Notes under the pieces: model-generated
What the model was told of the DNA's origin: nothing
The model's input: only the letters and a program-made list of their open reading frames with translations
Databases searched by the model: none
In this document: positions 1,133-63,053 of the stretch, in pieces
Position numbering within the stretch: the stretch's first letter is position 1
Layout of the letters: every line of letters begins with the position of its first letter
NCBI GenBank assembly: GCA_947034885.2
Contig: OZ019759.1
Coordinates: 5,334,501-5,398,500, forward strand
Origin: Thuidium tamariscinum
Lineage: Eukaryota > Streptophyta > Bryopsida > Hypnales > Thuidiaceae
Direction of reading: 5' to 3'
DNA length: 64,000 nt
Made by a program: the position numbers and the translations under genes

Positions 1133-1153
1133 TTATCGTCGACTCGACGATAA
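1133..1153. promoter_or_regulatory. Copy-1 palindrome, site 1 (perfect, 10-bp arms)
   Basis: Half-site TTATCGTCGA, one spacer C, then its exact reverse complement. It lies in coding sequence and reads YRRLDD in the frame that matches copy 2, where the homologous palindrome (32721-32737) reads LRLED. Binding by the encoded protein is inference. Confidence 0.75.
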
Positions 1154-1313
1154 CGTGGACACCGTGGCCATTGCAGAGGTGCAAGCAGCGTCCTCCATTC
1201 CGCTCTCTGACCCACCCAGGCACGTCTCTCCGGATCCTGCAACGTTTGAGGTCGTCATCCCAGAGACGAAGGATCTCGCATCTCTGGACTCCGAAGTCCC
1301 TACTACGGAGGAG

Positions 1314-1332
1314 TATCGTCGACTCGACGATA
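1314..1332. promoter_or_regulatory. Copy-1 palindrome, site 2 (perfect, 9-bp arms)
   Basis: Half-site TATCGTCGA, spacer C, exact reverse complement. It is in the same reading frame as site 1 (YRRLDD), 181 bp downstream. Copy 2 keeps only the left half at the matching place (32899-32909). Confidence 0.75.
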
Positions 1333-1731
1333 GAACTGAGGCAGAGGCGGGTCCGTCGCGTGTGGTGGCACAGGGAAATGACAATATTGAAGTGCCACCA
1401 TGTGTGATGTCGGAACAGGATTTGGTGCAACCCGAGACAGAATCCCACAGACAGGAAGATCTCGTGGATTATGAGGATGACAAGATTGTGGGTGCTGGAG
1501 ACGAAGTGGCCGACGACGCGACTCAGGTACTCGATTCGAATCCCTACAAGTTTGATTGAGTCTGAACAACTTGAGGTCCTTTCTATCTAATCAAAGGGAA
1601 ATGGAAAATTGTAATTGTGTTGGACTCTCACTTCTGTTCATGATTCATGATAGGGTGGTGTCGCCTCATCTTGAATCCGTGGCGCTGACGGAGAACCCGT
1701 CTGTGGCCGAAGTTTCTATAGTACAGTGTAG

Positions 1732-1747
1732 CTTAGTCGCGACTAAG
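1732..1747. promoter_or_regulatory. Perfect 16-bp palindrome CTTAGTCGCGACTAAG
   Basis: Even-length palindrome without a spacer base, inside the copy-1 intron, 8 bp before a TCGACTCGA site. Its sequence differs from the other families but it keeps an inner TCG/CGA. It is flanked by TGTA-like bases on both sides. Confidence 0.5.
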
Positions 1748-1754
1748 TGTACAG

Positions 1755-1773
1755 TTTTGTCGACTCGACGAAA
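1755..1773. promoter_or_regulatory. Copy-1 palindrome, site 3 (intron, one mismatch)
   Basis: TTTTGTCGA, spacer C, TCGACGAAA: one mismatched pair in 9-bp arms. It has the copy-1 core with altered outer arms and lies in the intron before the FCP1-like exon. Confidence 0.55.
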
Positions 1774-2044
1774 AGAAAATTTTGTAGTATGTACTTTATA
1801 ACATGTGCAAATAAAGTATTCGGATGTTCTTAAAAATTCAAGTGTGGACTAGTCTAATTGTACATTTTCTTGATGCCCAGCTTCCAAAAAATGTTAGCGT
1901 GCACCGCCCGATCCCAATGAAAGCTTTTCCTAACGAGGGACACCAGTCGATAAGTGGATTTCAATGCAAGTCTCCACTTCCTGGCTCTCCCGATTCTGCA
2001 TTTCAACAGGTAACTCCATCTCATTGTTGTTTTGCTTTCGTCAG

Positions 2045-2872
2045 GTAGAGACGGAGGAGCGGAGAGAGGTCGTGCCGAGGAACATGCCACCGTTAGTCCC
2101 TCCACCGCGAGGAAAATGGCTGAACATTGTCTTGGACTTGAACGGGGTGCTCTGCCAAAGCATGCAGAAGTGCTACGGGGACAAACTGAAGTCCCACAAC
2201 GTCGAAGACAATGTTCTGTGCCATAGGAACCCGACCAGCATCGGGTCCAAGTTCGTGTTCGCCCGGCAGAATGTCGGTGAGTTCTTGCGGCAGCTGTGGG
2301 AGATCGCGGACAGGGTGGTCGTGTGGACCACCATGCTCAAGAAGAATGCCGAACCCATCGCGGCGCACTTGTTCCATGGTTGCAAGGCCCCCTACGATAT
2401 ACTAGGGCAGGAGCAGTGCACCAAGATAGAAACGGCTCCGGGAAAATTCTTTCACCATGGGGGGAAAAAACTCTTCATGAAAGTCTTGGAGGACAGCCTC
2501 TTCCCCATCAACGATGGGAACAGGCCGTTCTACATGCACGAAACCATTCTCATTGACAATACTCCCGCGAAGGGTATCTGCAATGCGAATGGCAACTCCA
2601 TTTTCCTAGAGTCTTGGAGTCACGCCAAGCGTAGGGACGACGTGCTCATGGGAGAGCTCCTCCCATGGTTGCGGCGTCTGCATGAGCATTGCCCTGAAGG
2701 CGAACTCATGGAGTACGTGGAGGACAACCGGATCGGCTTAGAGCCGCTCAATCACGATAACCCGTACTTCAAAGAAGTGGTCAAGGGCATGAAAGAGTCC
2801 GCGAAGGTCATGGGGGCGCGCTACGCCGTTTGCACCGGGAAAATCATTTGTCCACGAAATCGTAAAAAATAG
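2045..2872 (+). CDS. Copy 1: FCP1/TIM50-like HAD domain exon
   Basis: The exon opens after a 3' splice site and encodes an NLI-interacting-factor / FCP1-homology HAD domain. HAD motif I is at residues about 29-35 as LDLNGVL, near residue 95 is VVWTTM like the FCP1 motif II region, and near residue 172 is ILIDNTPAKG, the conserved DNSP-type motif of FCP/SCP/TIM50 proteins. A Trp/Leu-rich end follows (PWLRRL). Active members have DxDx(T/V) in motif I. Here the second Asp is Asn (DLNG), which should weaken or abolish phosphatase chemistry; plant HAD proteins with DLNG are known to me, so this may be a binding module. The frame stays open to TAG at 2870, but a weak donor AAG/GTCATG at 2806 would join in phase 0 to the tail exon at 3119. 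Homologous exons are at 33905 and 63660. Confidence 0.7.
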   Translation, partial: VETEERREVVPRNMPPLVPPPRGKWLNIVLDLNGVLCQSMQKCYGDKLKSHNVEDNVLCHRNPTSIGSKFVFARQNVGEFLRQLWEIADRVVVWTTMLKKNAEPIAAHLFHGCKAPYDILGQEQCTKIETAPGKFFHHGGKKLFMKVLEDSLFPINDGNRPFYMHETILIDNTPAKGICNANGNSIFLESWSHAKRRDDVLMGELLPWLRRLHEHCPEGELMEYVEDNRIGLEPLNHDNPYFKEVVKGMKESAKVMGARYAVCTGKIICPRNRKK

Positions 2873-28390: not shown

Positions 28391-28411
28391 TTATCTTCGA
28401 TTCAAATATAA
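28391..28411. promoter_or_regulatory. Copy-2 palindrome upstream of the copy-2 ATG
   Basis: TTATCTTCGA, spacer T, TCAAATATAA: exact copy-2 left half-site, right arm with two changes. It lies 49 bp before the proposed start. Copy 3 has its own palindrome 35 bp before its ATG (58718-58738). Confidence 0.55.
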
Positions 28412-28459: not shown

Positions 28460-29871
28460 ATGGATAGTTATGAGTACGCTACTACGAAGGACCATCTGGA
28501 GCCATTTATAAATCCATTTTTGGACAAGCCTTTATTCGAAGAAATGGAAGAAACTTAGGGGGAGCTTTGGCAATTCAAGGAACACATTGCGACTTGGAGC
28601 TTCGGCGTAAACAAATGGAAAGACTTTGTGTACTTGCGCTAGCGTGTCCAAGGAAGAGACACTTATCTTCCATGGAATATGAACGAGAAAGTGACTATCA
28701 TTGAAGAGCACCATAAAGATTATGTTGTGACAATGTTGTGGGAAGTGGATGATCAAGGAAAACCCGGTGTGCACAATCACTCAATTGTGATCGATGTCAA
28801 TGCTTACCATGGGAAATTCGACCTCAACAATCTCATGACCTTCCTTGAGGGTTCACTCATGCAATCCCTTAATGATGAGTTTGATAAAGTAGGATATCTT
28901 CCTTGGAAGAACAGTTCCGGAAAGTCTACTGCCAATCAACTTCGGCATATTTGGCAAGCCCTTGATCACTACGCAGTCCGAAATGTGGAAAAAATTCCGG
29001 CAGTTGGAGGTTCCTCACAAACACACAAGCCTACTGATATGACAAAGAGACCAGTTTCTGTTGCGGCTGGGGCGAGGACACAAGAGAAGAGACCCGCAAG
29101 GACACGTTCTGAACCTCAAAAGTCTGCATCGAGACGAGCTGCAGCTAGTGAAACTAGTCGAGAAAGGCGCAAGTCAACACATCCTTCTTCATCAGTTGCT
29201 GGAGGAAACTCTGGCTCAGGACTTACAACAGTTGAGGCAAGTAAATTAGAAAAAGACGCACCTATGGAGGAACACGAGAAGTTTGAGCTGATCCAAAGAA
29301 ATTTCTGGGTAGAGCATGAGTCATGTTTCCTCTTTGAGATGGATCCAAAGAGTGTTTCCATCATGGAGTGCGAAGTAGCTCGAGATGAGTTTATCATTCG
29401 AACTTTGTAAAGGGATATTAAATAGACACCGTGAAGAAAGAGCTTGTCCAAATCATCGATGTCAAGCAGCGTCAAAAAGTTTGTCTCACACTTGTTGACA
29501 AAAACAAGAACTTGTTGAAGAAGAAACCTCGAACATGGGACGAGATTAAGGGCGGCAATTTCATGATTATTAATGGGCAACACTCCATAATGGCTTCAAA
29601 AGAGCTTCAAGAGGCAGGATGCGGAGATGACAAGAAATTATTGCTTCAAACATGGGACGCTTACATTGTCTGGACTCGAGATGCAACAAAGCTCACAAAT
29701 ATTTCCAGATTCTACAACTGTACCAACCACTTGGATCACGCTCAGCCCACATGGGGCAATCAAATTATCAGTTGTAGGAACATATGGATCTCCTGCAAGC
29801 GGCCCACAGATGATGAGAATGAAGCCGTTGCCCGGAACAACAAATCCGTGTACAACCTCACTGATTATCAG
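28460..29871 (+). pseudogene. Copy 2, exon 1: N-terminal and ParB/DGQHR-like domain
   Basis: ATG at 28460 is in frame with the long open stretch 28679-29410. An N-terminal globular part aligns loosely with copy 3 (GKFDLNNLMTFLEGSLMQSL for IPFYINNFLHSL). A Ser/Arg/Lys-rich linker follows. The ParB-like domain reads FMIINGQHSIMASKEL, then DAYIVWTRD, then ISRFYNCTNHL, each matching copy 3 (YIMNGQHSVSASKL, DCYIVWSNS, ISAYYNRVNHF). NGQH replaces the DGQHR box. Stops at about 28557, 28640, 29408 and 29420, and a frameshift near 29410-29430, show that this copy is damaged. The exon ends CAG/GTTAGT in phase 0. What the N-terminal domain does is unknown. Confidence 0.6.
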
Positions 29872-33904: not shown

Positions 33905-34666
33905 GTAGGGTCGAAGGGACGGGGAGAGATCGTGCCGAGGGAGGTGACGCATGTTCCATCCGGGTCACGGAGGAAGTGGCTCAACATTGTCTTTAACTTG
34001 AATGGTATTTTGTGCAAATGCGAGCATAAAACAAATAGCTCAAAAATAAAAACATACAGGCTCAAAGAGAATGTTTTGTGCCACAAGGTGCCCATAGTCA
34101 TCAGGTCAAAGGCAGTCTTTGCCAGACAGAACGTAGGAGAGTTCCTCAGGGAGGTATCCAAATTCGCGGGTAGGATGTTGGTGTGGACCTCGATGTGTAA
34201 GCACAATGCTGAACCCATCGCGGGATACATTTTCAGCAAGTCTGTGCCCCCCTTCGATGTCCTCCCTCAGGAGTAGTGCAAGAAAATAGAGGTCACCAAG
34301 GGAAATTTTCTTTCCCGTGGTGAAGTGCCCACGCTCCTAAAGGTCTTGTCGGACCAACTCTTCTCCAATCCTAGTGGAGATGGGTCCTTCACTCCTGATA
34401 ATACCCTTCTCATTGACGACACTCCAAAAAAGAGTGTCTACAATGAGAGAGGGAATGTAATTTTCCTAGACCCATGGAACCATGGACAAAGAAGGGACTA
34501 CTTCCTCATGGAGAAGCTGTTGCCTTGGCTCCATTGTCTGGATACTGAATGTCGCCGAGGAGGGTTGCGAGAGTTTGTCGAGGCAAACCGCATAGGAAAA
34601 GCCCCGCTGGAGGCTAATAGTTATTTCGTGAAAGATATTTTACACAGAATGAAGGAATCCGCTTAA
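33905..34666 (+). pseudogene. Copy 2: FCP1/TIM50-like HAD exon with TAG and lost nucleophile
   Basis: Homologous to 2045-2872: KWLNIVFNLNGILC for KWLNIVLDLNGVLC, VFARQNVGEFLR shared, MLVWTSMCKHNAEPIA for VVWTTMLKKNAEPIA, and LLIDDTPKKS for ILIDNTPAKG. HAD motif I is NLNG: even the nucleophile Asp is replaced by Asn, so no phosphatase activity is expected. An in-frame TAG lies at 34274-34276. It ends MKESA then TAA, where copy 1 has MKESAK and a possible donor. Confidence 0.7.
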
Positions 34667-36470: not shown

Positions 36471-36473
36471 AGA

Positions 36474-36773: not shown

Positions 36774-36776
36774 ATT

Positions 36777-40806: not shown

Positions 40807-42128
40807 TTGTAATTGGTAACGTTTGCACTATATTGTAAAAAACATGATATTCATTAATTTGGTAGATGGAGGACCTACCAAAATAATATCTTCCATTTGC
40901 AAGCCCATAATATTATGCAGACTGTAGGTTTGTATGAAATTTAGGTTGAACAAATCTCATTTCATTAGTTAGAAATTGTAATTTCCATTAAAATGATAGT
41001 ATAAAGTACAAAAAACAGATAAACCCTGATCATTCATTTCCAAATATGCACTGTTTCATACAAACTTTTCTCCAATGTATAGTATTATGTGTCTATTCAT
41101 ATGGAAATCTCTTCACTTAATAGTCACCCTATTGAATTAGGGTACATTGCGAGAAGTGCATTAAGAGACTGATAGTTGTGTGATTCGAGGTCCGGGTTCG
41201 ATTCCTGTTGACCTCCATCTCATTAAGCCGTGGGCGCTACCCTGATATTGAGCTAGAGTAAAGGTGTACTTAGAACTCACACAAATTTTTTTGTATGTAT
41301 TTAACTTAAGATGAATATGCTTAAGTATGATAAATGTGTTCTAAAAATTTTAACTGACAGTAACAATGATGTGAAAAGACTTAAATAGTTTACAAACAAC
41401 AAGTGCTAAACAACTAATTTTATTAATGATTGCGAGTGAAACTATATATTTCTTCAGAATTTCCAGAACTATGCTCCAAAACCTATAATAGTAGTATAGA
41501 AAATACCTATCATCATTATTTGAAAATAATTGAAACAAATACCTTAAATATTCTAAGAAAATTTCTTAGTATGGAAATTTTTTGCTAAGGCCATACAAAA
41601 GACCTCTTTCAAGATCCAAACTTCATATCAATAGAACCAATAGTATGCACTAGCATTTATATAATACCCAAAGCTATTATACTAGGTTGTAAAAAACAAT
41701 TACTACAAAATGAAATTGAGTCTAGGACTTCGTTTACTACAAAAACATTAAAAAAAACATATACCATCCTCACTTCTCTACTACTTAACCTACATCTTAT
41801 AAATGATTAAAATGATTTAATAATGATCATTACATTTTGAGATACAGTACTCTTCATATAAAGAAACCAAGTACCTCTTACAATTCACCAAGTTCTACAA
41901 AGAATTAGACATATGAAATCTTTACCAACCGATAGAATTTGACTAAGAAAAAAAATTGAAAAAGCTCTTACCTTCATAAAATTGGCATGGAGAACTATTA
42001 GGAATTTGTAGAGTCAACCTAGAATATTTACATTTATAACAAAGCCACAGGAACCGTAAAGCAAACAAAAATTTCCTGAAATAGTGGCCACAAATAATTT
42101 TAACTTAGTACACGATAGGTCGTAGCCG
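40807..42128. other. AT-rich interval with a SINE-like patch
   Basis: No gene seen. Contains the tRNA-like patch listed at 41147-41280. Confidence 0.4.
41147..41280 (+). repeat. tRNA-derived SINE-like sequence
   Basis: Exact pol III B-box GGTTCGATTCC at 41195-41205, with an A-box-like TTGCGAGAAGTG about 48 bases upstream. No tRNA cloverleaf can be drawn, so a SINE head is more likely than a tRNA gene. The 3' limit is a guess. Confidence 0.35.
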
Positions 42129-42149
42129 TTTAGGTGAAGTCAACCTAAA
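42129..42149. promoter_or_regulatory. Copy-3-type palindrome near the DUF7869-like gene (degenerate)
   Basis: TTTAGGTGAA, spacer G, TCAACCTAAA: outer arms match, core altered. Confidence 0.5.
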
Positions 42150-42300
42150 CCAGACAAATGAACAAACACATACTACTCAAGCGGAATGCCTTCATCGAAC
42201 CTTCTCTCTCTACTCTCAGAACAAAACTCCCCTAAATTAAATACTTAAGACAAAAATGAAGGCGGCGTGAAAAGTTGAAGGACTAATATTGCATTTGAAA

Positions 42301-42321
42301 TTTAGGTCGACTCAAACTAAA
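42301..42321. promoter_or_regulatory. Copy-3-type palindrome (two mismatches)
   Basis: TTTAGGTCGA, spacer C, TCAAACTAAA. Confidence 0.55.
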
Positions 42322-42683
42322 TTACATCCACCTCTGTAAACAATTTTCTTAGAACTACCATTTCAATAAACTAAATCAGAAGTGCACCCTTGAAATAAAT
42401 AATAGAATGTGCGCACCAATTGATGAATTAAATCCAGAAACAACTTCCTCAACAAATATTAAAATATTGAATGCTGGATGGAGAGGAAGTCTTAGAAAGA
42501 AAAGGACTTTTTTATGATGAAGAAATCCTATTTTCAGACAGAGGATCCTTGAAAGACATATATGTAGGAAAATCAAAGTAGTGTATAGATTGACTTATGG
42601 ATTAAATGCAAATGCAAAACATGATCCAAACTTCATGAAAAATCAACCCTACCGTGAATGATATAAGTAAACGGAATTTCCAT

Positions 42684-42704
42684 TTCAGGTCGACTCGACC
42701 TGAA
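42684..42704. promoter_or_regulatory. Copy-3-type palindrome (perfect, 10-bp arms)
   Basis: TTCAGGTCGA, spacer C, exact reverse complement. Downstream of the minus-strand DUF7869-like ORF. Confidence 0.75.
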
Positions 42705-42745
42705 TTGATTCTTTCTCTGAATGAAGGAACCTATAAAACTACTAG

Positions 42746-42764
42746 TTAGGTCAACTCAACCTAA
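42746..42764. promoter_or_regulatory. Copy-3-type palindrome (core changed)
   Basis: TTAGGTCAA, spacer C, TCAACCTAA; 52 bp from the previous site centre to centre plus 9. Confidence 0.5.
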
Positions 42765-43143
42765 ACTGCATTCCGTAACAGAAAAAATAATTGTGTATAA
42801 GAAACACCAAATGCATTCCTAGAAACAATTTCAACAACAATTAAAAGATATTCAATTACAAATAAATGATTGACTTTACTATATAGTTTATAGAATTGGA
42901 AATTCTAAAAATATATAAAAAATAAAAAATTTATTATAAGAATATAGAATATTCAAAGCACACTACCCAGTGCCTTTCGCAATGGTCAAACACAAACTGA
43001 TATGCAAATAAAGACTACTTACAGCATAAACAAATCAAACGCAAATCCAATCCAAACCGTCTGCTGCAATTCTAATATTTCACTACACACATGATCCAAC
43101 TTCAACATTCACATATGTAGCCGGTCTTCAAAACCTCAACCAC

Positions 43144-45981
43144 TTAGTTATATGCTTCAAGGCTCCGGTTTATGACTTCAATTTGAGTAGCCGGGATCTT
43201 CAACAAGCATTGGCGGGTATCTTTCTTGATTTGGGACTTCCATGCAGTCATCAAAGAATTCGTATGCTCCCAAATTGGTGGATCGTTGATATCCACCTTC
43301 CAACGTAAACCTCTTGCACTATCCCAACCAGTATAGTAGTCATGCACATTTTGGTCTCTCGATGTTGGACGAAAGTATTGGATGAGCACACAATTTGGGT
43401 GCTCCGGGTTGCAATTCGGATTAGACAATGCCCTTACAATCCAAATTGGTCGTGTGTCACCATCTGCAGGACGAACAACTACAAAATAACCTTCGTAAAG
43501 ATCACGACCAACCCTGAATGATGGTTGTGGGCGACCTTGTAGAGGCCCAACATAGGCGTCATCTTCCCCAAACTCTTCACGATCTTCACCATCTTCTTCA
43601 AATTGATCAGCTTCAATGGCTTCAACTTGAGTACTTGGCCAAAAATCATCCTTCAAAACCATTGAGGCATTCATTGGTTCCTGCAAAGCATTCCTCACAT
43701 CACGCCAATAGTGTACCAAATGCTCGTATCGTCTCCGACACTCTCCTGTGACGTCCGCATTACACAAATTCTCCCAATGCTTTACAAAGCCACCTAGTCC
43801 TTTTTCAATGTCTTCTATTCCTCTCATTGGTTTAGGAAGAACAGGCAATGGTGTTCCCCGAGGCCACAAACTTCTACCCTCAACATCCTCCTTCCACAAT
43901 TTGATACCTCCAGCACCATCTCCTAACCATTCAAGATCGGTGCAAAGCAATTTGTACTTCATGACTGGAACCCCATTTGAATCTAAGTAAAACTTTACTT
44001 GCTGCGGCTTTGTATGTCCAACAAGGGTCTCATCACCATCAACAAATGCACCAGCTATGAACCCCTTGAAGTCTGGAACCTCTTCAATGAGGTGAGGAAT
44101 AGTTGGAATGGACTCCACATCCATGAACGACTTCATTAGCGCCGGAACTGTTGGAAAGTTCTCCTTCTTCAACAGCATGCTCCATCTCCCAAACAACGCA
44201 TCGATGTCATCGTGTGTATGCCCAATGATCATGAAGTTCACGTACACTTCTCGAAAAATCTTATTAGCCACGAGAAGAGACCAAAAACAAAAGACATATC
44301 GATTCTTGTTATCTCCAGTAGCATTGTCCATTTGCACATTTAAAATCGGCGGCAACGGTGATCCAAAAACAAAGGTTTGTGGTGGTGGCGGTAGAGATGC
44401 CTCACATATTTCTGCACCCTTTAATACCTTCTGAAATAAATTCGTGGACCCAGACCCCACAAACAACATCCTTGAGGAGGACTTCGGTGGTTCCTCAAGA
44501 TCTCGTAACAACCTTGCCATTGAACCAATGGTATAATTGGAATCATGAGGAAAAATATCAAGGCCATAATGGGCATAACGAACATCACCATGACCATGGG
44601 CAATCATGCCCGTCACAGAAATTGGCAACTTCATTAGGCCATCAGTCTCCTTGCTCTTGTGTGAAAACACAGGACAAGCCGTCTTGGCATGGTCCATCTT
44701 GTCATGCATGATTGTGAGGCACTCATGAGGATAATTGTGAGAGTGGTAGCGATTGGCATAGTAGTACTCTCTGTGAGCGCGAGCAATTGCTAAATGCTTG
44801 TCCAACCTCCTTGACCATTTCAAGGCACTAACTGACCCTGCTAGAGCACTCTTTCTCAACTCTTGTAATTGATCACAAGTGGTGCAGCGTGCAAAATTGT
44901 CTCCAGGTTTCTTCACTTCGAACTCAGAGAACTTCTTTGCTCTTATCTTGCTCAAGTTAGAAATTGAGATGCCCCTTAGACCAAACGCTGCGTTTGTGTC
45001 ATTGATGGCTTTCATTTGCCCCTTCCATTGAAAGGTGGAGGGCAAAATCATGGAAACAACCTTCTCCCCAAACTTGGTACTTCGCGTCTTATGAGGCATG
45101 TGATCCGCTTCCTTGTCCAATATACATTTCAAAGTTGCAGCAGCTTGTTCAGTGTGTTGCCTTGGTTTCAACAACCCCAAGTTCCCGTGGTCTCGTGCTT
45201 CTCTTTTGTCATTCGCAAATCTTTGATAGCGGTAGAATGTAGCCTCTGAGACACCTGAAATGAGCATCCATGCCCGCATACAGACACTGATCCCTTCCAC
45301 CACCACCATCTTCCTCCCACTTGAATCCAGGTGTACAGATCTATGAACGTCTGTCTTCATATGCGCCCTAAATTTAAATGTCGATCGCTGGTACATCCGC
45401 TCTCGAAACGCACGGATCTTCTCCCTCGGAAACGGTTGTATACAATTCCTTGTGCAACAGATCTTGCTTGAGATCGCGTTAATTGAATCTTGGGTGAGCA
45501 ACTCCTTTGCTTTCAAACCAGTGTCACGAGGCGGATTCCGAATGACACTCGTGTATGGCCGCGCAGATGTCATCGACGGCGGGTTCAAAATGTTTGCTTG
45601 AAGACGATTAAAATTGTCGCGAGCCTCGTGGTCTCGCAAACTGGCCCCACGACAATGGACATAGTCAATAGGCCATGCCATCAATGAATAGACACAATCC
45701 TGGGGTATGTCTTCTTCGGAATGCGTTTTCGAGATATGCACTGCAACATGTGTGTCACCAAGTGGACCGTTGGCACCCAGCACAAGGTCCGAGTTCACGC
45801 TATGACAAGTGCCTTCTCCAACAAGAGTTCCCTGAATGTTGTAAAGAGTAACACACATCGTGTTCCACAGTCGACGAGGAAGCCCTTCACACTCTGGAAT
45901 GCCAACGTTCATTCCTTCGAGGACTTGGAATTCATCGTCAGATGAATCCATGAAATTATCAGGAGTACTCGAAGAACCCAT
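43144..45981 (-). CDS. Intact 945-aa DUF7869-like protein
   Basis: The longest clean reading frame here, without introns or stops. Residues about 150-290 hold a Cys-rich and basic region (ISSKICCTRNCIQPF, then HLDSSGRKMVVVEGISVC and MRAWMLISGV) typical of the family. A C-x2-C (RCTTCDQL) is near 365, then a His-rich part (HSHNYPHECLTIMHDKMDH). Near 545-600 is the signature LNVQMDNATGDNKNRYVF, YVNFMIIGHTHDDIDALFGR. These two blocks have the look of a DDE/RNase H-like core, so the family may derive from a transposase (inference). The C-terminus has an acidic stretch and a conserved HP-NC block. From memory, such genes are common in mosses, lycophytes and charophytes. Copy-3-type palindromes flank both ends. 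Confidence 0.65.
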   Translation of the reverse strand: MGSSSTPDNFMDSSDDEFQVLEGMNVGIPECEGLPRRLWNTMCVTLYNIQGTLVGEGTCHSVNSDLVLGANGPLGDTHVAVHISKTHSEEDIPQDCVYSLMAWPIDYVHCRGASLRDHEARDNFNRLQANILNPPSMTSARPYTSVIRNPPRDTGLKAKELLTQDSINAISSKICCTRNCIQPFPREKIRAFRERMYQRSTFKFRAHMKTDVHRSVHLDSSGRKMVVVEGISVCMRAWMLISGVSEATFYRYQRFANDKREARDHGNLGLLKPRQHTEQAAATLKCILDKEADHMPHKTRSTKFGEKVVSMILPSTFQWKGQMKAINDTNAAFGLRGISISNLSKIRAKKFSEFEVKKPGDNFARCTTCDQLQELRKSALAGSVSALKWSRRLDKHLAIARAHREYYYANRYHSHNYPHECLTIMHDKMDHAKTACPVFSHKSKETDGLMKLPISVTGMIAHGHGDVRYAHYGLDIFPHDSNYTIGSMARLLRDLEEPPKSSSRMLFVGSGSTNLFQKVLKGAEICEASLPPPPQTFVFGSPLPPILNVQMDNATGDNKNRYVFCFWSLLVANKIFREVYVNFMIIGHTHDDIDALFGRWSMLLKKENFPTVPALMKSFMDVESIPTIPHLIEEVPDFKGFIAGAFVDGDETLVGHTKPQQVKFYLDSNGVPVMKYKLLCTDLEWLGDGAGGIKLWKEDVEGRSLWPRGTPLPVLPKPMRGIEDIEKGLGGFVKHWENLCNADVTGECRRRYEHLVHYWRDVRNALQEPMNASMVLKDDFWPSTQVEAIEADQFEEDGEDREEFGEDDAYVGPLQGRPQPSFRVGRDLYEGYFVVVRPADGDTRPIWIVRALSNPNCNPEHPNCVLIQYFRPTSRDQNVHDYYTGWDSARGLRWKVDINDPPIWEHTNSLMTAWKSQIKKDTRQCLLKIPATQIEVINRSLEAYN

Positions 45982-46048
45982 GTTCCTGTTTTCAAAAAGA
46001 ATATTAATATGTCAGCTAAGGTATCAGCATAAAACATAGAGAAGACAG

Positions 46049-46069
46049 ATCAGGTCGAGTCAACCTAAT
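46049..46069. promoter_or_regulatory. Copy-3-type palindrome upstream of the DUF7869-like gene (one arm changed)
   Basis: ATCAGGTCGA, spacer G, TCAACCTAAT, 68 bp before the ATG of the minus-strand gene. Confidence 0.55.
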
Positions 46070-46143
46070 TATACAAATAGGTATATTTGAAACTGATTCT
46101 TATCGTAAATTATAAAATATATATAGAGAAAATATTGTCATTA

Positions 46144-46170
46144 CCATTTAGGTCGAATCGACCTAAATGG
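46144..46170. promoter_or_regulatory. Copy-3-type palindrome (perfect, 13-bp arms)
   Basis: CCATTTAGGTCGA, spacer A, exact reverse complement: 27 bp in all. It lies in the likely promoter region of the DUF7869-like gene. Confidence 0.85.
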
Positions 46171-46324
46171 GCCAGTCTTAAAATTGTATCATCCATGACA
46201 ATTCTCTGATCGAAATTATTTTACATCTTGCTCTGTGACATGGCCTTTCCTTCTTGATCCGAGATCAATATTTTCAATTAAGCATTCATGTCATCAATTT
46301 ATGAATGTCAGTAAAGGTTACCAT

Positions 46325-46345
46325 TTTATGTCGAGTCGACCTAAT
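46325..46345. promoter_or_regulatory. Copy-3-type palindrome (two mismatches)
   Basis: TTTATGTCGA, spacer G, TCGACCTAAT. Confidence 0.6.
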
Positions 46346-46467
46346 TTGTCATTCAGCATTATTTTATGCCAAGTAATTCATTACAATAAAGAATTCAATC
46401 CAAGGTAACCTAGAAAAGTATTCGTCTCTGTACTCTGTTCATGTACATGTAACGGAGGGTGTTACGT

Positions 46468-46488
46468 TTCAGGTCGACCGGACCTAAA
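46468..46488. promoter_or_regulatory. Copy-3-type palindrome (core changed)
   Basis: TTCAGGTCGA, spacer C, CGGACCTAAA. Confidence 0.5.
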
Positions 46489-49400: not shown

Positions 49401-50523
49401 GAAACCTAAACTACAACGATCAAACCCCAAAAAGTAGGTAGTGAAGAAAACAGAGCTAGAAAAGAAAAGTAAACAAAAACATACACTAAAAATATAAGTA
49501 CGAGGGCGTTGCTCCCTCCACATAAAGGAAGGCCCGATTCTAGAGGCAAATATTGGCAACTCAAACCACATACAACTGAATTTGGTCAATATGGAATACC
49601 ATCATGTGGGCATTTGTAAGCGCAACAATGATACAGTTGAGAGTTTCAAGAATCGGTGCAATCATTGCATATGCAGTTGGAACAAAATAAATTGTACCTT
49701 CACTATATTGTCTTCTCACTTGAATCTGGAAAAACAAAACATTTTAAAATTTCTTTAAAAAAATTTCCAAGTTGAATTTCAATTTCATACTTGCATCATT
49801 CAAATTCTCCACGAAGTAAAGCAAAAAGGATATTTTGGGACTTTCTTGGAAAACATGGAGAACCCTCAAATGCCATGAAATTCACACCTTCGGTAGACTG
49901 GAGTTAAGTAGAGCTGGTATAAATTGAAAGCCGACAGTATATTGATATTTGAATTATTCATAAAGTACACTAAACTGGGGATTAAACCCATGAACTTTTA
50001 AAAAAAACAGTTTCATTTAAAAAAGTCAAAATAAAAGTGGGTATGAAACGTATTTTTCCATGAAAATGGTGCCTAAAAAAGTTTGGTTCTACTTCTATAG
50101 GCATGTGACATAAGTATCTTGCTAAAAAGTTTGACGCTTCAACTGTAGTTGCCTTTTTAACTTTCAAAAAAGTCATGCCCGAAGTGGGGTGCACTTTAAA
50201 AATAACTCAATTAGGTACTGAAAATCTTAGAATGTTCAAGTCATGTGCATTTCTAAATTTTATGGTTTAAGCAACAATTTAATTGTCTTACCTATGTATC
50301 ATATTATTAATTTTGATGATTGAAATCATGGCCTTACATCCTGATTTCATGATGACATTGTGTGATTTTTCTATTTTCCTTGGCTTTGCTTCTTAAATTT
50401 TTTATAATTTTGGCTTTTTTCTGTTTAGAAACAAAGCATTACCATATTCTTCTTTTAGCTAGAACCTTTTATTAATTTAAATTGTGCTTGTTAGAATAAA
50501 TTAGCTTCATATATATTTCAAAA
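46489..50523. other. Non-coding interval upstream of the DUF7869-like gene
   Basis: Short ORFs only, none with a recognisable domain. 46.7-47.2 kb has higher GC and may be a promoter or 5' untranslated region. I see no copy-3-type palindrome between 46.5 and 58.2 kb. Confidence 0.4.
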
Positions 50524-53500
50524 TAGCGTGTCCCTTAATTGTGCAATTTGTATATGAAAAACAAAAACTCACCGCACTGCCATTTTTTGTCCAAAAAATC
50601 AAAACCCCTCAAATGTCATGAATTCCACGTCAAATAATGTCCCAAAAACTATGAGAAAGTCGTAAAGTCTTAGGACACTCATTTCAAACACTAATTTCCA
50701 TACCATGTCCCTTAATTACGCAATTGGTATGTGGAAAACAAAAATTCATTGCCCTGCCATTTGTTGTCCCAAAAATAAAAAACCCTCAAATGTCATGAAT
50801 TCCACGTCAAATGATGTCCAAAAAAATATGAGGAAGTTGTGAAGTCCTAGGACACTCATTTCAAACACTAATTTCAATAGCATGTCCCTTAATTGTGCAA
50901 TTTGTATATGAAAAACAAAAACTCACCGCACTGCCATTTTTTGTCCAAAAAATAAAAAACCCTCAAATGTCATGAATTCCACGTCAAATAATGTCCCAAA
51001 AACTATGAGAAAGTTGTGAAGTCTTAGGACACTCATTTCAAACACTAATTTCCATACCATGTCCCTTAATTACGCAATTGGTATGTGGAAAACAAAAATT
51101 CATTGCCCTGCCATTTGTTGTCCCAAAAATAAAAAACCCTCAAATGTCATGAATTCCACGTCAAATGATGTCCAAAAAAATATGAGGAAGTTGTGAAGTC
51201 CTAGGACACTCATTTCAAACACTAATTTCAATAGCATGTCCCTTAATTGTGCAATTTGTATATGAAAAACAAAAACTCACCGCACTGCCATTTTTTGTCC
51301 AAAAAATAAAAAACCCTCAAATGTCATGAATTCCACGTCAAATAATGTCCCAAAAACTATGAGAAAGTCGTAAAGTCTTAGGACACTCATTTCAAACACT
51401 AATTTCAATAGCATGTCCCTTAATTACGCAATTGGTATGTGGAAAACAAAAATTCATTGCCCTGCCATTTGTTGTCCCAAAAATAAAAAACCCTCAAATG
51501 TCATGAATTCCACGTCAAATGATGTCCAAAAAAATATGAGGAAGTTGTGAAGTCCTAGGACACTCATTTCAAACACTAATTTCAATAGCATGTCCCTTAA
51601 TTGCGCAATTGGTATATGGAAAACAAAAATTCACGCATTGCCATTTTTTGCCCGAAAAATCAAAACCCCTCAAATGTCATGAATTTCACGTCAAATGATG
51701 TCCACAAAAATATGGGAAAGTTGTGAAGTCCTAGGACACTCATTTCAAACACTAATTTCAATAGCATGTCCCTTAATTACGCAATTGGTATATGGAAAAC
51801 AAAAATTCACGCATTGCCATTTTTTGCCCGAAAAATCAAAACCCCTCAAATGTCATGAATTTCACATCAAATGATGTCCAAAAAAATATGGGAGAGTTGT
51901 AAAGTCCTAGGACACTCATTTCAAACACTAATTTCAATACCATGTCCCTTAATTGCGCAATTTGTATATGAAAAACAAAAACTCACCGCACTGCCATTTG
52001 TTGTCCAAAAAATCAAAACCCCTCAAATGTCATGAATTTCACGTCAAATGATGTCCAAAAAAATATGGGAAAGTTGTAAAGTCCTAGAACACTCATTTCA
52101 AACACTAATTTCAATACCATGTCCCTTAATTGCGCAATTGGTATATGGAAAACAAAAATTCACGCACTGCCATTTTTTGCCCGAAAAATCAAAACCCCTC
52201 AAATGTCATGAATTTCACATCAAATGATGTCCAAAAAAAATATGGGAGAGTTGTAAAGTCCTAGGACACTCATTTCAAACACTAATTTCAATACCATGTC
52301 CCTTAATTACGCAATTGGTATATGGAAAACAAAAATTCACGCACTACCATTTTTTGCCCAAAAAATCAAAACCCCTCAAATGTCATGAATTTCACATCAA
52401 ATGATGTCCAAAAAAATATGGGAGAGTTGTAAAGTCCTAGGACACTCATTTCAAACACTAATTTCAATACCATGTCCCTTAATTGCGCAATTTGTATATG
52501 AAAAACAAAAACTCACCGCACTGCCATTTGTTGTCCAAAAAATCAAAACCCCTCAAATGTCATGAATTTCACGTCAAATGATGTCCAAAAAAATATGGGA
52601 AAGTTGTAAAGTCCTAGAACACTCATTTCAAACACTAATTTCAATACCATGTCCCTTAATTGCGCAATTGGTATATGGAAAACAAAAATTCACGCACTGC
52701 CATTTTTTGCCCGAAAAATCAAAACCCCTCAAATGTCATGAATTTCACATCAAATGATGTCCAAAAAAAATATGGGAGAGTTGTAAAGTCCTAGGACACT
52801 CATTTCAAACACTAATTTCAATACCATGTCCCTTAATTACGCAATTGGTATATGGAAAACAAAAATTCACGCACTACCATTTTTTGCCCAAAAAATCAAA
52901 ACCCCTCAAATGTCATGAATTTCACATCAAATGATGTCCAAAAAAATATGGGAGAGTTGTAAAGTCCTAGGACACTCATTTCAAACACTAATTTCAATAC
53001 CATGTCCCTTAATTGCGCAATTTGTATATGAAAAACAAAAACTCACCGCACTGCCATTTGTTGTCCAAAAAATCAAAACCCCTCAAATGTCATGAATTTC
53101 ACGTCAAATGATGTCCAAAAAAATATGGGAAAGTTGTAAAGTCCTAGAACACTCATTTCAAACACTAATTTCAATACCATGTCCCTTAATTGCGCAATTG
53201 GTATATGGAAAACAAAAATTCACGCACTGCCATTTTTTGCCCGAAAAATCAAAACCCCTCAAATGTCATGAATTTCACATCAAATGATGTCCAAAAAAAA
53301 TATGGGAGAGTTGTAAAGTCCTAGGACACTCATTTCAAACACTAATTTCAATACCATGTCCCTTAATTACGCAATTGGTATATGGAAAACAAAAATTCAC
53401 GCACTACCATTTTTTGCCCAAAAAATCAAAACCCCTCAAATGTCATGAATTTCACATCAAATGATGTCCAAAAAAATATGGGAAAGTTGTAAAGTCCTAG

Positions 53501-53675
53501 GACACTCATTTCAAACACTAATTTCAATACCATGTCCCTTAATTACGCAATTGGTATATGGAAAACAAAAATTCATCGCACTGCCATTTTTTGTCCAAAT
53601 AATCAAAACTCCTTGAATGTCATGAATTCCACGTCAAGTGATGTCCACAAAAATTTGAGGAAGTCGTAAAGTCCT
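50524..53675. repeat. 177-bp satellite, 18 units, trimeric higher-order repeat
   Basis: Units begin near CATGTCCCTTAATT at 50524, 50704, 50881, 51058, 51235, 51412, 51589, 51765, 51941, 52118, 52295, 52471, 52648, 52825, 53001, 53178, 53355 and 53531. From 51941 to 53531 the period is 530 bp: three units (177+177+176) repeated three times almost unchanged. The left part looks like a dimer of 354 bp. Every unit has the AT-rich palindrome AATTGCGCAATT or its TACG variant. Monomer length is in the range of plant centromeric satellites, but the array is short. Confidence 0.9.
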
Positions 53676-53715
53676 AGGAAATATTTAGAAATGACGAAAG
53701 AAAGAATACAATTGT

Positions 53716-58234: not shown

Positions 58235-58276
58235 ATTAGGTCGATGTCAGATTAGGTCGATGTCAAATTAGGTCGA
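58235..58276. repeat. Three tandem copy-3 half-sites, 16-bp period
   Basis: ATTAGGTCGA at 58235-58244, 58251-58260 and 58267-58276, separated by TGTCAG/TGTCAA. All point the same way: half-sites in direct repeat instead of a palindrome. Confidence 0.8.
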
Positions 58277-58353: not shown

Positions 58354-58382
58354 TCACTTTAGGTCGAGTCGACCTAAAGTGA
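58354..58382. promoter_or_regulatory. Copy-3 palindrome (perfect, 14-bp arms)
   Basis: TCACTTTAGGTCGA, spacer G, exact reverse complement: 29 bp, the longest in the window. Upstream of copy 3. Confidence 0.9.
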
Positions 58383-58560
58383 CAGTTAGCTATCCATATA
58401 TGTATTTGGATGACAGTGGTAGTTCCTTTCATTAGAAGACGAATAAGCAAGATCCACGCGCAGAATAAACACAATAAAATGAACAAACTATAACTGTTCT
58501 CCTACAAATTGAACGTCGATTCAGAAGGACCAGTGAATTGCAACATCACAGAATCGACAT

Positions 58561-58581
58561 TTCAGGTCGAGTCGACCTAAA
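58561..58581. promoter_or_regulatory. Copy-3 palindrome upstream (one mismatch)
   Basis: TTCAGGTCGA, spacer G, TCGACCTAAA. Confidence 0.75.
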
Positions 58582-58717
58582 GTGTTCAATCAAGGATCAT
58601 TTTTACGCATACAAGCAGACTGAAAGGATCAAACGAAATAAACTAAATCCTATATGATCAATGGAAGAAAACCTTAAAACAGAAAAACTCTGCTGATGAG
58701 AAGAACGTCTGTGCTGT

Positions 58718-58738
58718 TTTAGATCGACTCGACCTAAA
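58718..58738. promoter_or_regulatory. Copy-3 palindrome just before the ATG (one mismatch)
   Basis: TTTAGATCGA, spacer C, TCGACCTAAA; ends 35 bp before the ATG at 58773, as in copy 2. Confidence 0.75.
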
Positions 58739-58772: not shown

Positions 58773-60209
58773 ATGGAAGAGCAAGTTCCGAAGCTCGAAC
58801 AATTTTTTAAGTGGCTGAACATTGCAGCTGCCGCCGCCGACGGAGATGACTTTAGCAACGAAGGAGAGTTCTGGGAACTGAAGGATCCCGAAGTCGTTGA
58901 ATCCTCGTCACTCATGCTGATCCCCATGACACACAAATATTTCTTCTGTCGAAAATACAAAGATCAGCTACCATTCTACCCAATCTCATACAAAGAAAAA
59001 ATAAAGGAGGTTTCCCCCGATCTTGGAACAATGATAAAGATCCATTGTGTTACCGCACAGATTAGGAAAAAGAATGAAGAACAATATCATTTCACGTTGG
59101 TGATTGACTCTCTGAAGATTCCGTTTTACATCAACAACTTCCTCCACAGTCTCGACAACTCACCTTACAGTGGTGAAATTGCAGAATTAGAGAAGAAGGT
59201 GGACGCTGGGTACTGGAAGACCAAGAAAAGAGCTCAAGTCAGCGGCAAAAATCTTTGTGACCGACTGAGGCAGCTCTTTGTTGATTTCGTCGTCTTGAAG
59301 GGGAAGATCGACCTGAAGAAGAGCCAGACAGCAGCACGATCTGTCTCCCACGACTCGCCAAGTTTTATTGAGGATCAGAGCTCTCAGGGAACACCAGGTA
59401 CCCAACAAAGTCGTGGCACCAGACGAAGTGTTCAAACTGGAACACCTCCGACGAGGGCGAGAAAGAGTAATCTCGCTTCAACCTCTGCTCAGAAGACCCC
59501 CGAGGATGATGAAAGCGATCCCCAGGCTCCTGACATCAGTTTCGCGTCCGCTGTGACTGATGTGCCTTCTGCACATGACCCTAAGCGCAAGGTCGACTAC
59601 AAGGAGTCCACAGAGGCATATAAAAACTATTGGGCCTGCTGTAGTGATGCATATATTTTCGAAATTGACCAGAAGAAGAAGTTGCCGATCGAGAACCTTC
59701 TTGCTGCGCCAGCTGACATGAATATCCGAAGCCACGAGCAGCGGCTTGTCGAGGATATGTTTCACTTCTTGATGCACATGCTAGATAAGACTAGCAAACA
59801 GACTCTGTGTGTCATGCCAAAGGACCATTCGGAGAAGCTGAAGAAGGAGGATTGGGAAACACTAAGGCAGGGAAAGTTCTACATTATGAACGGGCAACAC
59901 AGTGTGTCGGCAAGTAAATTGATGGTCGAGAGAAATGTGGATGAGGCCATCTTGAAGTATTTTCGTGAATGGGACTGCTACATTGTTTGGTCTAACAGCA
60001 ATGAAGTCCTGAGGACCATCTCGGCTTACTACAACCGTGTCAATCACTTTGTAGCTCTAAAGCCCTCCTGGTCTACGAACATTCTTGGTGCAAGAACCTG
60101 CTGGATTAACATGGGGAGTCCACGAAATCCAAAGGATGGTGCACCCGTCGGCAGTGCGTCAGTTGCTCGTTGAAATGCTGACGCGAAGAAAAATGCCGTG
60201 AAGTTTAAG
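58773..60209 (+). pseudogene. Copy 3, exon 1: N-terminal and ParB/DGQHR-like domain
   Basis: Best-preserved N-terminal exon: ATG 58773, 466 codons open, one TGA (60171-60173), then 12 more codons to AAG/GTACGT in phase 0. Residues 1-190 form a globular domain (contains EEQVPKLEQFFKWL, KIPFYINNFLHSL) that I do not recognise. Residues 195-265 are a Ser/Thr/Arg-rich linker. Residues about 285-440 are ParB-like: AYIFEIDQKKKLPIENLLAA like the ParB-box start, FYIMNGQHSVSASKL at about 369-383 for the DGxHR box, DCYIVW and ISAYYNRVNHF. In bacteria and phages a ParB-like domain is often fused to a DNA methyltransferase in this order, which supports the reading of exon 2. Confidence 0.65.
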
Positions 60210-60217
60210 GTACGTTC

Positions 60218-60240
60218 ATTTAGGTCGACTCGACCTGAAT
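60218..60240. promoter_or_regulatory. Copy-3 palindrome in intron 1, first
   Basis: ATTTAGGTCGA, spacer C, TCGACCTGAAT: one mismatch in 11-bp arms. Confidence 0.8.
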
Positions 60241-60294
60241 ACTTTATTTTTATTTCATCAACAAATTGTGAACATATTCAATAACATCATAGTT

Positions 60295-60317
60295 ATTTAG
60301 GTCGATTCGACCTAAAT
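60295..60317. promoter_or_regulatory. Copy-3 palindrome in intron 1, second (perfect, 11-bp arms)
   Basis: ATTTAGGTCGA, spacer T, exact reverse complement. Confidence 0.85.
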
Positions 60318-60356
60318 TGTATATCAAACTAATAATCAATCTTTTTCTTCAAACAG

Positions 60357-61709
60357 GAATTCGTGAAAGCAATGAATGTCCGCTTCGCGATGTTGGACGT
60401 CATAAAATCCTAGAAGACATCAAGGGGGAAAGATGGAAATGAAAAACTCAAAACAACGAACAAGTTGAAGATCATTACGGCACCGGATGATGTCTATGAC
60501 CTCTGGAGCGAGGTAATTTCTAGTGCTGCGCATGGGGAGCTGATTGACCCAGACACTCTGCTAAAATTCAAGGTCAAGCCAGGGTGGAAGTCTGAGAATG
60601 GGAACCTTACACACGAGTTCTTCAAGTGGTTGGGTAATCTTTCATTCGAGGACTTGAAGAAGCTTGCGCAGCATATTCTTCACATAAATCCGAAGAGGAT
60701 GAACCTGCAGTACCCGAAGGTAACTGTGAAGATGATAACTTCAGTGCTTGAAAGTTGCTACACGGCGAAGGACTGGGTTGAGCGGCGCAAGAGGAAGTAC
60801 TTGGTTAAAAGGGAGCTCCACCTCATAGATCCATCCTTGGGATTGCTTAATGTGTTCAATAATTTGAACGTGGAGAAATGGAGGGAGTTCAAGACCAGTC
60901 GCTCCATAACCAGCGCCACGATGAATGTACTTCTGGAGAAACCGGGTGAAGATTATTGGAAGGATGCCAAGCAGACCCGATCCAAGAATAAGACAGCAGA
61001 GGAGTTGTCTCCATACGCCGCTCAGTTTTTCAAGACCTTCCTTGAGCGTCGCAACAATTTCGTGAAGCCACAAACTGTAGCGCATTATAGAACCTATGAG
61101 ATCGAGATGGACAAGCACCACGAATGGCCTACTGGTACTTGGCGGCCGGAGACGGTGAAAGGCATGGATTTTGGAGTGATAGACTTCCGCTATACTCTAG
61201 TGGTCCTGAATAAAGGAAAGTGCACACCGCTTCAGCCTTATTTTGCCGCAGTGATGGCCTCTTTCCAGAAGATGAAGAAGCCTTCTCTTGAGGAAATCCC
61301 GAGCTGGCTCTTCATCTGCGCACATTTTGTTGAGCAGACCCAAGTGCTGACCTTCATTCATCAGAATCCTGTCTTGAAAGAGTACAGGATGGACAGCGCT
61401 GAGTACTGGCCAGCGAAGAATGAGAGAATGGGAGACTACTCCTCGAATAATAGCAAGGTAGTAGAGAACATTTACCTCATTTTTCTTCAAGACAAGTCCA
61501 GAGTGGACTGGCAATTGCCGAACAAGACATACCGGGCACCTGAAACAGACATCTTGAACAAGCCCCGGATGTACAACGAGATTGCGTTTAGGATTCACAA
61601 TACAGAACTCCGCATTGAGTTCTATGTGAATATCCTTTGGCGATTTGCACTCGGATCACTGAATGTTCTATCTGTGTTCGGGGGAGCAAAATTAACTTGT
61701 GCTCCCATG
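60357..61709 (+). pseudogene. Copy 3, exon 2: methyltransferase-like domain
   Basis: One TAG (60411-60413), then open to ATG/GTATGT (61709). The first 240 residues match copy 2 but no known domain. From about residue 265 the order is that of beta-class N6/N4 DNA methyltransferases: WRPETVKGMDFGVIDFRYTL at the motif IV position (DFRY instead of DPPY); a strand SWLFICAHF; NPVLKEYRMDSAEYWPAKN with the Trp of the target-side segment; NSKVVENIYLIFLQDK; then IEFYVNILWRFALGSLNVLS and VFGGAKLT in place of the motif I D-x-F-x-GSG. Catalytic and cofactor residues differ from active enzymes, so a binding-only pseudoenzyme is the likely role, if any. Confidence 0.55.
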
Positions 61710-61718
61710 GTATGTTGT

Positions 61719-61739
61719 TTTAGGTCGACCCGACCTAAA
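61719..61739. promoter_or_regulatory. Copy-3 palindrome in intron 2, first (one mismatch)
   Basis: TTTAGGTCGA, spacer C, CCGACCTAAA; starts 9 bp after the donor. Confidence 0.8.
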
Positions 61740-61808
61740 TGTCCTTGAAATTTCCCTGCTTCGGTACTCGTTTAATGATTTGTTTGAATTCATTTTGATG
61801 AGTTTTGT

Positions 61809-61829
61809 TTTAGGTCGACTCGACCTAAG
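61809..61829. promoter_or_regulatory. Copy-3 palindrome in intron 2, second (one mismatch)
   Basis: TTTAGGTCGA, spacer C, TCGACCTAAG. Confidence 0.8.
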
Positions 61830-61893
61830 TAGATAACGATTCCAACCCTTGGTGAACTAATTTTCTTTTTTGCACATTATTTCCAATCTGCAG

Positions 61894-63009
61894 ATGCTGA
61901 GCAAAAGAGTCTTTGCTATTGGGACATCCGATGAGTCTGAACACTGGACTGAAATCGTTGAGGTGGGCAAATCGCTTGACAAAGACGACTTTCTTCCGAA
62001 GGGTTATTTTGTGGATGAGGAGCTTCATCTACAGAAGCCACCATTCTCTTCGACACCCTCTTCATCCCAACGTCGGGCACCGTCATCAAGGGGGAAGAAA
62101 GCTGAAGTCGAGGTGGAAGAATTGTCGGATGATGGAGGCAACTCCGAGGAGGAGATGGATGTCACGGACCCTCTTCCCCTGAATGAGGAGCACTGCACAC
62201 CTGTGCATCTTTCTCAGAGTGTTCGCGAATCATCCGCGTCATCTGGACAGCCCCTTGATGTACAACCAGTAAGCACTCCCGCCGACGCAAGGGTACAGAA
62301 GAAAAGGAGAAGGGATGACGATGACGACGAAGAAGAAGAAGATATGCGAGTGCAATTGGAAAAGATCAGGGAGTCGCGGAAGAAAGAACGCGCTCAGAAT
62401 CTTGCTCTCCATGCCGAGCATGGTGAGCGGCTTGATGAAATCAAGAATTTGTTGTTTGCGCAGAATGCAGACACTCAAGCGACGTTGGCGGCCATCGTCA
62501 ACCACTTGCAAGGCGTCACACCAATTAGCTCCGTTCTACCACTGCAAGGTGCATCACCCTTGATGATCCAAGGTTCCGGTTTCGGGTCATTCGGTTCGTT
62601 CCTGAATTTGGGATCAGGACTCCCTTGACCAGGATCCTCGTCGGCGGCTCCCCAAGTTCTGATGCCAGCACCTGCCGATTTAGCGCCACCTGTACCAACG
62701 GCATCAGCTTCTACTCCCGTCGAAGCATCTGTACTGCCCTCGGCCGCTGAGGCATGCATTGGAAGTGAAACTGTGTGAAGACAGTGCGAGTAGTCTCCCC
62801 TTCCTCTTGAACATCCTGAGGTGGCAGTTCCGCAGCCAGTCATGAACGTTGACATCGTTGAAGTGAACGTCGTTCAAATGGACGTTGACGAGGACGTGGT
62901 GGTTGCAACTCCGGCGGAATACATCATGGAGAGCGTAGTCCCTGCTGAGATTGACGACGCGTCTGCTGTGCCGGATAACTCCGCTGTAGGTGCAGGTGCC
63001 TCCGGTTGA
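61894..63009 (+). pseudogene. Copy 3, exon 3: end of MTase-like domain, acidic linker, coiled coil
   Basis: Starts MLSKRVFAIGTSD, the partner of copy 2 MFGAYYYGFVD. Then SLDKDDFLPKGYF, an acidic Ser-rich linker, a basic-acidic patch KKRRRDDDDDEEEEDM, and a predicted coiled coil (VQLEKIRESRKKERAQNLAL). Stops: TGA 62626, TGA 62776, TAG 62791, TGA 63007, all in the same frame, with sensible protein between (VDIVEVNVVQMDVDEDVVV). The linker is not alignable with copies 1 and 2 beyond composition, and has no coding palindrome; the palindromes are in introns instead. Confidence 0.55.
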
Positions 63010-63032
63010 ACTTCTGATGTTCTGCATGGCGT

Positions 63033-63053
63033 TTTAGGTCGGCTCGACCTAAT
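63033..63053. promoter_or_regulatory. Copy-3 palindrome in intron 3 (two mismatches)
   Basis: TTTAGGTCGG, spacer C, TCGACCTAAT. Confidence 0.65.

Follow-up and report, generated by a model that had tools for sequence, protein, structure and literature searches.

A ParB-like protein and candidate family-specific palindromes in giant transposable elements of the moss Thuidium tamariscinum

The 64-kb stretch of the Thuidium tamariscinum genome analysed here (C11:5334501-5398500 of a 363-Mb assembly in 19 contigs; hereafter, the window) carries parts of three copies of a gene whose product combines, in this order, a predicted ParB/Noc-like domain, a predicted methyltransferase fold of the N4C/N6A type, a coiled-coil region and an NIF (NLI interacting factor-like) phosphatase domain, each copy being accompanied by short palindromes (Table 1). 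A sequence-only reading of the locus had taken these for gene copies; they are instead parts of transposable elements, and copy 3 is part of a giant element. The copy 3 element has terminal inverted repeats and, on the strand opposite to the ParB-like gene, a divergent DUF7869 gene, whose product is a candidate transposase. As argued below, it is likely that such elements are giant DNA transposons that encode their own recognition protein for family-specific palindromes.

The palindromes consist of two mirrored half-sites, TTnnnnTCGA, around one base, which yields a 21-bp site with the core TCGANTCGA. The window contains 16 exact cores against 0.68 expected from Markov simulation and, when scored throughout with the three 21-bp consensus sites, 20 places with at most three mismatches and 29 with at most six (0.05 and 7.2 expected, respectively); the palindromes are thus real and not a product of chance. 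The arms differ between the three copies as had been claimed, reading TTATCG in copy 1, TTATCT in copy 2 and TTTAGG in copy 3 (sites are named below by their last three arm bases). The statement that all sites share an intact core was too strong: at least one core mismatch is present at 28391, 29961, 31406 and 32899 in copy 2, where 32719 alone is exact, and 42129, 42301, 42745, 46049, 46468, 61719 and 63033 in copy 3. The site counts have also shifted. Among the five to six sites first assigned to copy 1, two are clean TTATCG palindromes (1133 and 1313), 1754 and 3496 are weak, 3407 is a core alone and 3628, singled out as the one mixed site, is mixed indeed; copy 3, credited with nine, has 16 sites, eight at the ParB-like gene and eight around the DUF7869 gene, plus a tandem array of half-sites.

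The left terminus of the copy 3 element is defined by genome matches, 39 of which (non-self, of 40 scored) begin at window positions 40832-40841, mostly at 40841, with 75-100% identity. The 21-bp terminus has 316 matches with no more than three mismatches, compared with 78 for a control; among the first 100 of these, 14 neighbouring pairs face inward at a distance of 20-39 kb, one pair faces outward and one lies on the same strand, and 2 of the 14 inward-facing pairs enclose a listed ParB copy of clade A (see below). The window stops short of the right end of copy 3. When the best 48 of 948 DUF7869 candidates in the genome were scored, a correctly placed listed terminus was found 0.7-2.7 kb from the gene in 26 copies, and a clade A ParB copy within 20 kb in 32, all divergent, versus about 2 for random positions on the same contigs; clade B ParB lies near 1 of the 48. 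The gap between the two genes spans 8.4-15.8 kb in the 32 linked copies, so that the stretch with the 177-bp tandem array between the two genes of copy 3 probably belongs to the element. Next to the copy 3 element, window positions 36321-40840 are occupied by a separate multi-copy hAT-type element (Dimer_Tnp_hAT, DUF659), which ends exactly where the copy 3 element starts.

The arm type follows the ParB clade across the genome. The copy 3 ParB exon and a clade B relative, used as queries, gave at least 92 and at least 89 genome matches, respectively, and a ParB tree of 95 rows splits into clades A and B with 100% support in the Shimodaira-Hasegawa-like approximate likelihood ratio test (SH-aLRT). 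Sites were called with an arm-blind finder in 60 loci, the 30 best ParB-exon matches per clade with 1.5 kb on each side (copy 3 included as L012), which yielded 274 sites, 1-7 per locus. AG is the dominant pair of fourth and fifth arm bases (p4 and p5) at every one of the 30 clade A loci, and TC at every one of the 30 clade B loci; AG is read by 287 of 296 half-sites in clade A, where six of the exceptions are both halves of three exonic chance palindromes, and TC by 249 of 252 in clade B. The dominant p6 is G in all 30 clade A loci and T (21), A (7) or C (2) in clade B. Mapped on the ParB tree, the AG/TC class requires one change over 39 rows (odd reads and duplicates dropped) against a shuffled mean of 13.2, as expected if the arm follows ParB phylogeny, and the finer arm class seven changes against 21.6; with three odd reads kept, 43 rows show four changes of arm class. 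Assortment by position was counted over the first 100 places listed per pattern, with C11 left out and the nearest listed ParB copy sought within 20 kb. The nearest copy to 78 AGG sites is near clade A (at least 69% identical to the copy 3 ParB) in 70 cases, far clade A (at most 45%) in none and clade B in four, with no copy in range for four, whereas 27 of 46 AGC sites have a far clade A copy (near versus far, 70:0 for AGG and 0:27 for AGC); of the 49 TCT sites, 27 are nearest to clade B and one to far clade A. The arms are therefore not spread evenly regardless of gene copy, 99% of random positions on C1-C3 having no listed ParB copy within 20 kb. Co-variation of protein and arm is seen for AG and TC by clade and for AGG and AGC by near and far ParB, but does not extend to TCG and TCT as separate types. 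Among the 29 multi-site clusters examined on C1 and on C2 as far as about 36 Mb, no cluster combines AGG with AGC, and two combine AG with TC types (shuffled mean 22.7), these two being probably abutting or nested elements.

Two further observations concern the distribution and the sites of ParB copies. C11 accounts for 17.5 of 363 Mb, yet 42 of the 83 copies listed for clade A and 38 of the 89 for clade B lie on it, about nine to ten times its share; it is possibly a sex chromosome or another non-recombining chromosome. In the clade B loci L063, L066, L068 and L070, the half-sites are often unequal at the last arm base (A versus C or G) and A is often replaced at the fourth core position, as a heterodimer or a relaxed reader might produce.

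Relatives from another source carry the same core. A search of genome contigs based on the ParB alignment gave 15 candidate stretches, of which three (L001-L003) were confirmed, all in one cyanobacterial metagenome-assembled genome and filed under AVDCRST_MAG81; their exon-like structure and closest relatives suggest that they are probably plant contamination of a public cyanobacterial genome. L001 and L002 combine the core with TTCAGC arms at eight sites each, and L003 with the TTATCC arm at five; when 9 or more of 10 pairs are required to match, L001 has 8 palindromes, one of them lacking the core, L002 has 8 and L003 has 4, where 0.19, 0.26 and 0.20 are expected. Translated palindromes also occur within the last 80 residues of 41 of 147 database proteins, a few of which derive from L001-L003 themselves (shuffled mean 4.4, maximum 11), because prokaryote-style gene calls overrun the splice donor.

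Gene-site linkage and site positions common to subfamily copies are what would be seen if the palindromes had merely multiplied by duplication or gene conversion within each lineage and had no present function, an explanation that we regard as very improbable. In 14 chosen aligned pairs, identity reaches 90.4% at site bases (1146/1268) and 81.9% in flanks (8873/10831), with the sites more conserved in 12; the same arm type appears on both half-sites and on dispersed sites; and the core is common to both clades and to the contigs from another source. That all sites found at one locus (1-7 in the 60 loci) share an arm type likewise argues against mere co-descent. Site placement raises a second alternative, namely, that a host transcription factor binds the palindromes as ordinary promoter or enhancer elements of transposon genes. 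None of the 16 copy 3 sites falls within the DUF7869 frame or the ParB (from the assumed start), methyltransferase and coiled-coil exons, and the introns, of only 147 and 183 bp, hold two sites each; in the 60 loci, the ParB exon contains 3 of the 274 sites, all three with aberrant arms, though it covers 84,000 of 264,000 bases, and among 21 representatives it contains 1 of 85. A position in leaders, introns and gene flanks would suit a host factor, but AGG, AGC, TCT, TCC and TCG palindromes all coexist in one genome, a difference from element to element that would not be expected of such a factor, and p4-p5 is nearly uniform per locus and tied to the ParB clade, which makes this alternative highly unlikely.

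Transposase binding sites are typically subterminal, and the palindromes could also be thought to serve the DUF7869 protein in transposition, with the ParB-like gene merely travelling along. Half of the copy 3 sites (8 of 16) flank the DUF7869 gene, this gene is linked to clade A ParB in 32 of 48 scored copies, and sites no farther than 5 kb from a listed DUF7869 start also divide by the identity of that copy (AGC, 20 at copies with at most 82% identity and 0 at those with at least 88%; AGG, 0 and 27). The first site, however, lies 1.3 kb inside the mapped left terminus and others are in introns of the ParB-like gene; clade B shares the core, yet of the 49 TCT sites listed, not one is within 5 kb of a listed DUF7869 start (the best 48 of 948 candidates scored); and the DUF7869 protein differs little across the arm switch. 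Given that far-group DUF7869 proteins are still 77-82% identical to that of copy 3, the partner gene changed little while ParB and arm changed, and we consider the transposase-site explanation unlikely.

The catalytic motifs for methyl transfer are of the DPPY and FxGxG types; neither was present in any of 41 aligned exon 2 rows, 40 of which show a (V/I)D(F/L)R-type segment at the expected place and 30 an SxFxGxK-type segment, some rows being cut short. Bacterial ParB carries a CTP-binding motif; in the ParB-like domain studied here, a segment NGQ is invariant and followed by H and S in at least 90% of 31 rows. In the self-recognition model that we favour, the ParB-like protein would bind as a symmetric dimer to the 21-bp palindromes of its own element, candidate sites located mainly in noncoding DNA (leaders, introns and both flanks of the DUF7869 gene). 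The core TCGANTCGA would be read by every family member and the arm in a family-specific manner, such that protein and arm would switch together. One trans-acting factor per family is expected because dispersed arms would otherwise hardly change together, and three points make the ParB-like protein the strongest candidate: the core goes with the ParB family in both clades and in both sources, it is ParB that diverges where the arm switches, and changes of DNA preference are known in the ParB/Noc family (PMC7383237). We infer from this that the ParB-like protein is the binder and, more tentatively and by analogy with VANC, that binding might shield the element genes from host silencing and DNA methylation, so keeping them open, or might control their transcription; the dead methyltransferase fold may be a reader or a decoy, and the NIF phosphatase perhaps acts on transcription. 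In-frame stops of the listed ParB exon copies comprise 218 TAG, 47 TGA and 37 TAA (302 in total), although CAG outnumbers CAA only slightly in 19 intact frames. This excess of TAG fits the decay of CHG-methylated copies, so that the elements are probably silenced targets; TGG codons are another possible source of TAG. One in-frame stop, at 60171, interrupts exon 1 of copy 3.

A number of observations weigh against this model or narrow it. The DUF7869 protein could itself be the binder, and the helical region of exon 2, a possible arm reader, matched no solved fold. TCC sites mix with TCT or TCG, and with nothing else, in 9 of the 29 clusters, hence clade B families are not strictly marked by their last arm base; copies 1 and 2 form one loose class, and TTATCG and TTATCT cannot be upheld as separate cognate pairs. 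AGC half-sites occur inside the AGG loci L027, L028, L033 and L035, and also in L005-L009, 19 of 46 AGC and 21 of 49 TCT listed sites have no listed ParB copy within 20 kb, and some sites of copies 1 and 2 are in frame within the coiled-coil exon. Moreover, the change between AG and TC happened once, at a deep branch of the tree, and linked genes and sites share part of their phylogeny anyway, subfamily copies being non-independent.

It is conceivable, if doubtful, that self-recognition goes further and resembles parS, with the ParB-like protein loading on the palindromes, spreading or clamping over the element and labelling it as self, which would spare its genes from silencing. Were this true, protein-site pairs of several kinds (AGG, AGC and TCT/TCC/TCG) would exist side by side in one plant genome and hardly recognise one another's sites, so that a bacterial fold would have undergone a natural radiation in DNA recognition.

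The ParB-like exon of copy 1 is outside the window, and a clade B match at C11:5331284-5332714, which ends 1.8 kb before the first base of the window (5334501), is probably this exon. In copy 2, the NIF domain frame 34277-34663 matches PF03031 with an E-value of 0.0016, below the curated cut-off. Frame 22749-23291 appears ParB-like by eye (FFVCDGNHRLLAWS), has no Pfam match and is not among the frames similar to the family. Frames 16498-18606 and 24550-26905, related to each other in opposite orientation, mostly 70-80% identical and perhaps gag-like, are probably retroelement remains.

Table 1. Elements, genes and candidate sites in the window (window positions; L001 and L002 are relatives from another source)
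Feature	Position	Strand	Evidence
Copy 3: left terminus, terminal inverted repeat AACATgATATTCATTAATTTG	40841..40861	+	start points of genome matches
Copy 3: AGG site cluster, 3' of DUF7869 gene (42129, 42301, 42684, 42745)	42129..42765	.	consensus scan
Copy 3: DUF7869 gene, single 955-aa open frame, candidate transposase	43147..46011	-	Pfam PF25273, E 8.4e-42
Copy 3: AGG site cluster, 5' of DUF7869 gene (46049, 46147, 46325, 46468)	46049..46488	.	
Copy 3: 177-bp tandem array between the two genes	50469..53700	.	
Copy 3: tandem half-sites TTAGGTCGA, 16-bp period	58236..58276	+	
Copy 3: AGG 5' site cluster (58358, 58561, 58718), 5' of assumed start codon 58773	58358..58738	.	
Copy 3: exon 1, N-terminal region, disordered linker, ParB/Noc-like domain	58773..60209	+	donor GT by eye
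Copy 3: intron 1, sites 60219 and 60296	60210..60356	+	GT..AG bounds, homology on both sides
Copy 3: exon 2, helical region and beta-class DNA methyltransferase-like fold without catalytic motifs	60357..61709	+	
Copy 3: intron 2, sites 61719 and 61809	61710..61892	+	
Copy 3: exon 3, end of methyltransferase-like fold and acidic/coiled-coil region	61893..62628	+	open frame, position as in L001/L002
Copy 3: AGG site in next noncoding stretch	63033..63053	.	
Copy 3: NIF phosphatase domain, running off the window	63657..63998	+	PF03031, E 3.2e-8
Copy 2: TCT site, 5' leader	28391..28411	.	
Copy 2: ParB-like exon, clade B, two frames (28547-29407, 29422-29895)	28547..29895	+	
Copy 2: TCT site after exon 1	29961..29981	.	
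Copy 2: methyltransferase-like exon, two open frames; site 31406 at end	30016..31426	+	
Copy 2: coiled-coil frame, sites 32719 and 32899 in frame inside	32390..33082	+	
Copy 2: NIF phosphatase domain, two frames	33875..34663	+	similarity to copy 1
Copy 1: TCG sites (1133, 1313), in frame within ORF 828-1559	1133..1333	.	
Copy 1: NIF phosphatase domain	1934..2869	+	PF03031, E 4.4e-12

Accessory proteins with a ParB-like domain and a DNA methyltransferase are known in algal transposons, including Sola1-1_Ec32 of Ectocarpus and others in brown, green and red algae, and may, according to that report, bind and epigenetically modify their own transposon (PMC12477816). Both the kind of protein and the suggestion of own-element binding are thus already in print. 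As described there, the algal proteins resemble those of the moss in joining a ParB-like domain to a methyltransferase fold; the fold examined here differs in lacking the catalytic motifs in 41 of 41 aligned rows, and the moss protein adds an NIF phosphatase and is accompanied by the partner gene DUF7869. The moss elements, furthermore, have candidate cognate sites, whereas the string 'palindrom' is absent from the main text of the algal report (PMC12477816). We found no report of the sites of such proteins, of a plant case or of co-variation, in a search in which subscription journals were mostly not covered. The present case adds such proteins in a plant, with concrete candidate sites and a specificity code of about four base positions, and the candidate sites make the idea of own-element binding testable by gel shift.

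The view that no comparable plant system had been described overlooks the VANDAL transposons of Arabidopsis, where VANC attaches to motifs in the noncoding DNA of its own VANDAL family and brings about methylation loss (PMC5735166). The moss elements share the VANC-like trait of motifs that are specific to a family and lie outside the coding parts of the element, with the coiled-coil exon of copies 1 and 2 as the exception, and the location of the sites in noncoding DNA of both genes agrees with VANC. An element-encoded protein, related proteins that go with different motifs, and motifs that evolve along with the protein are also common to both systems, the moss protein being a candidate binder, but the VANC motifs are 8-9 bp long, in one orientation and often tandem, whereas the moss sites are 21-bp palindromes with a common core (PMC5735166). 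In the frames scanned, there was no Pfam match to VANC or to a Mutator-type transposase, and no direct comparison was made. If the proposed binding is true, it would represent a second, independent solution to VANC-like self-recognition, built on a bacterial partition protein.

The sites of bacterial ParB and Noc proteins are palindromic. ParB-parS and Noc-NBS share the ParB/Noc fold with the moss proteins and include relatives with differing DNA preference (PMC7383237). Unlike their bacterial counterparts, the moss genes reside in plant transposons rather than in a partition locus, have up to 16 sites (copy 3) and belong to a family whose invariant segment reads NGQ(HS). Should the proposal be true, a single genome would offer a large natural set, with four or more arm types and diverged protein copies by the dozen, for learning how ParB-type DNA preference changes, and such protein-site pairs could serve as orthogonal DNA-labelling tools.

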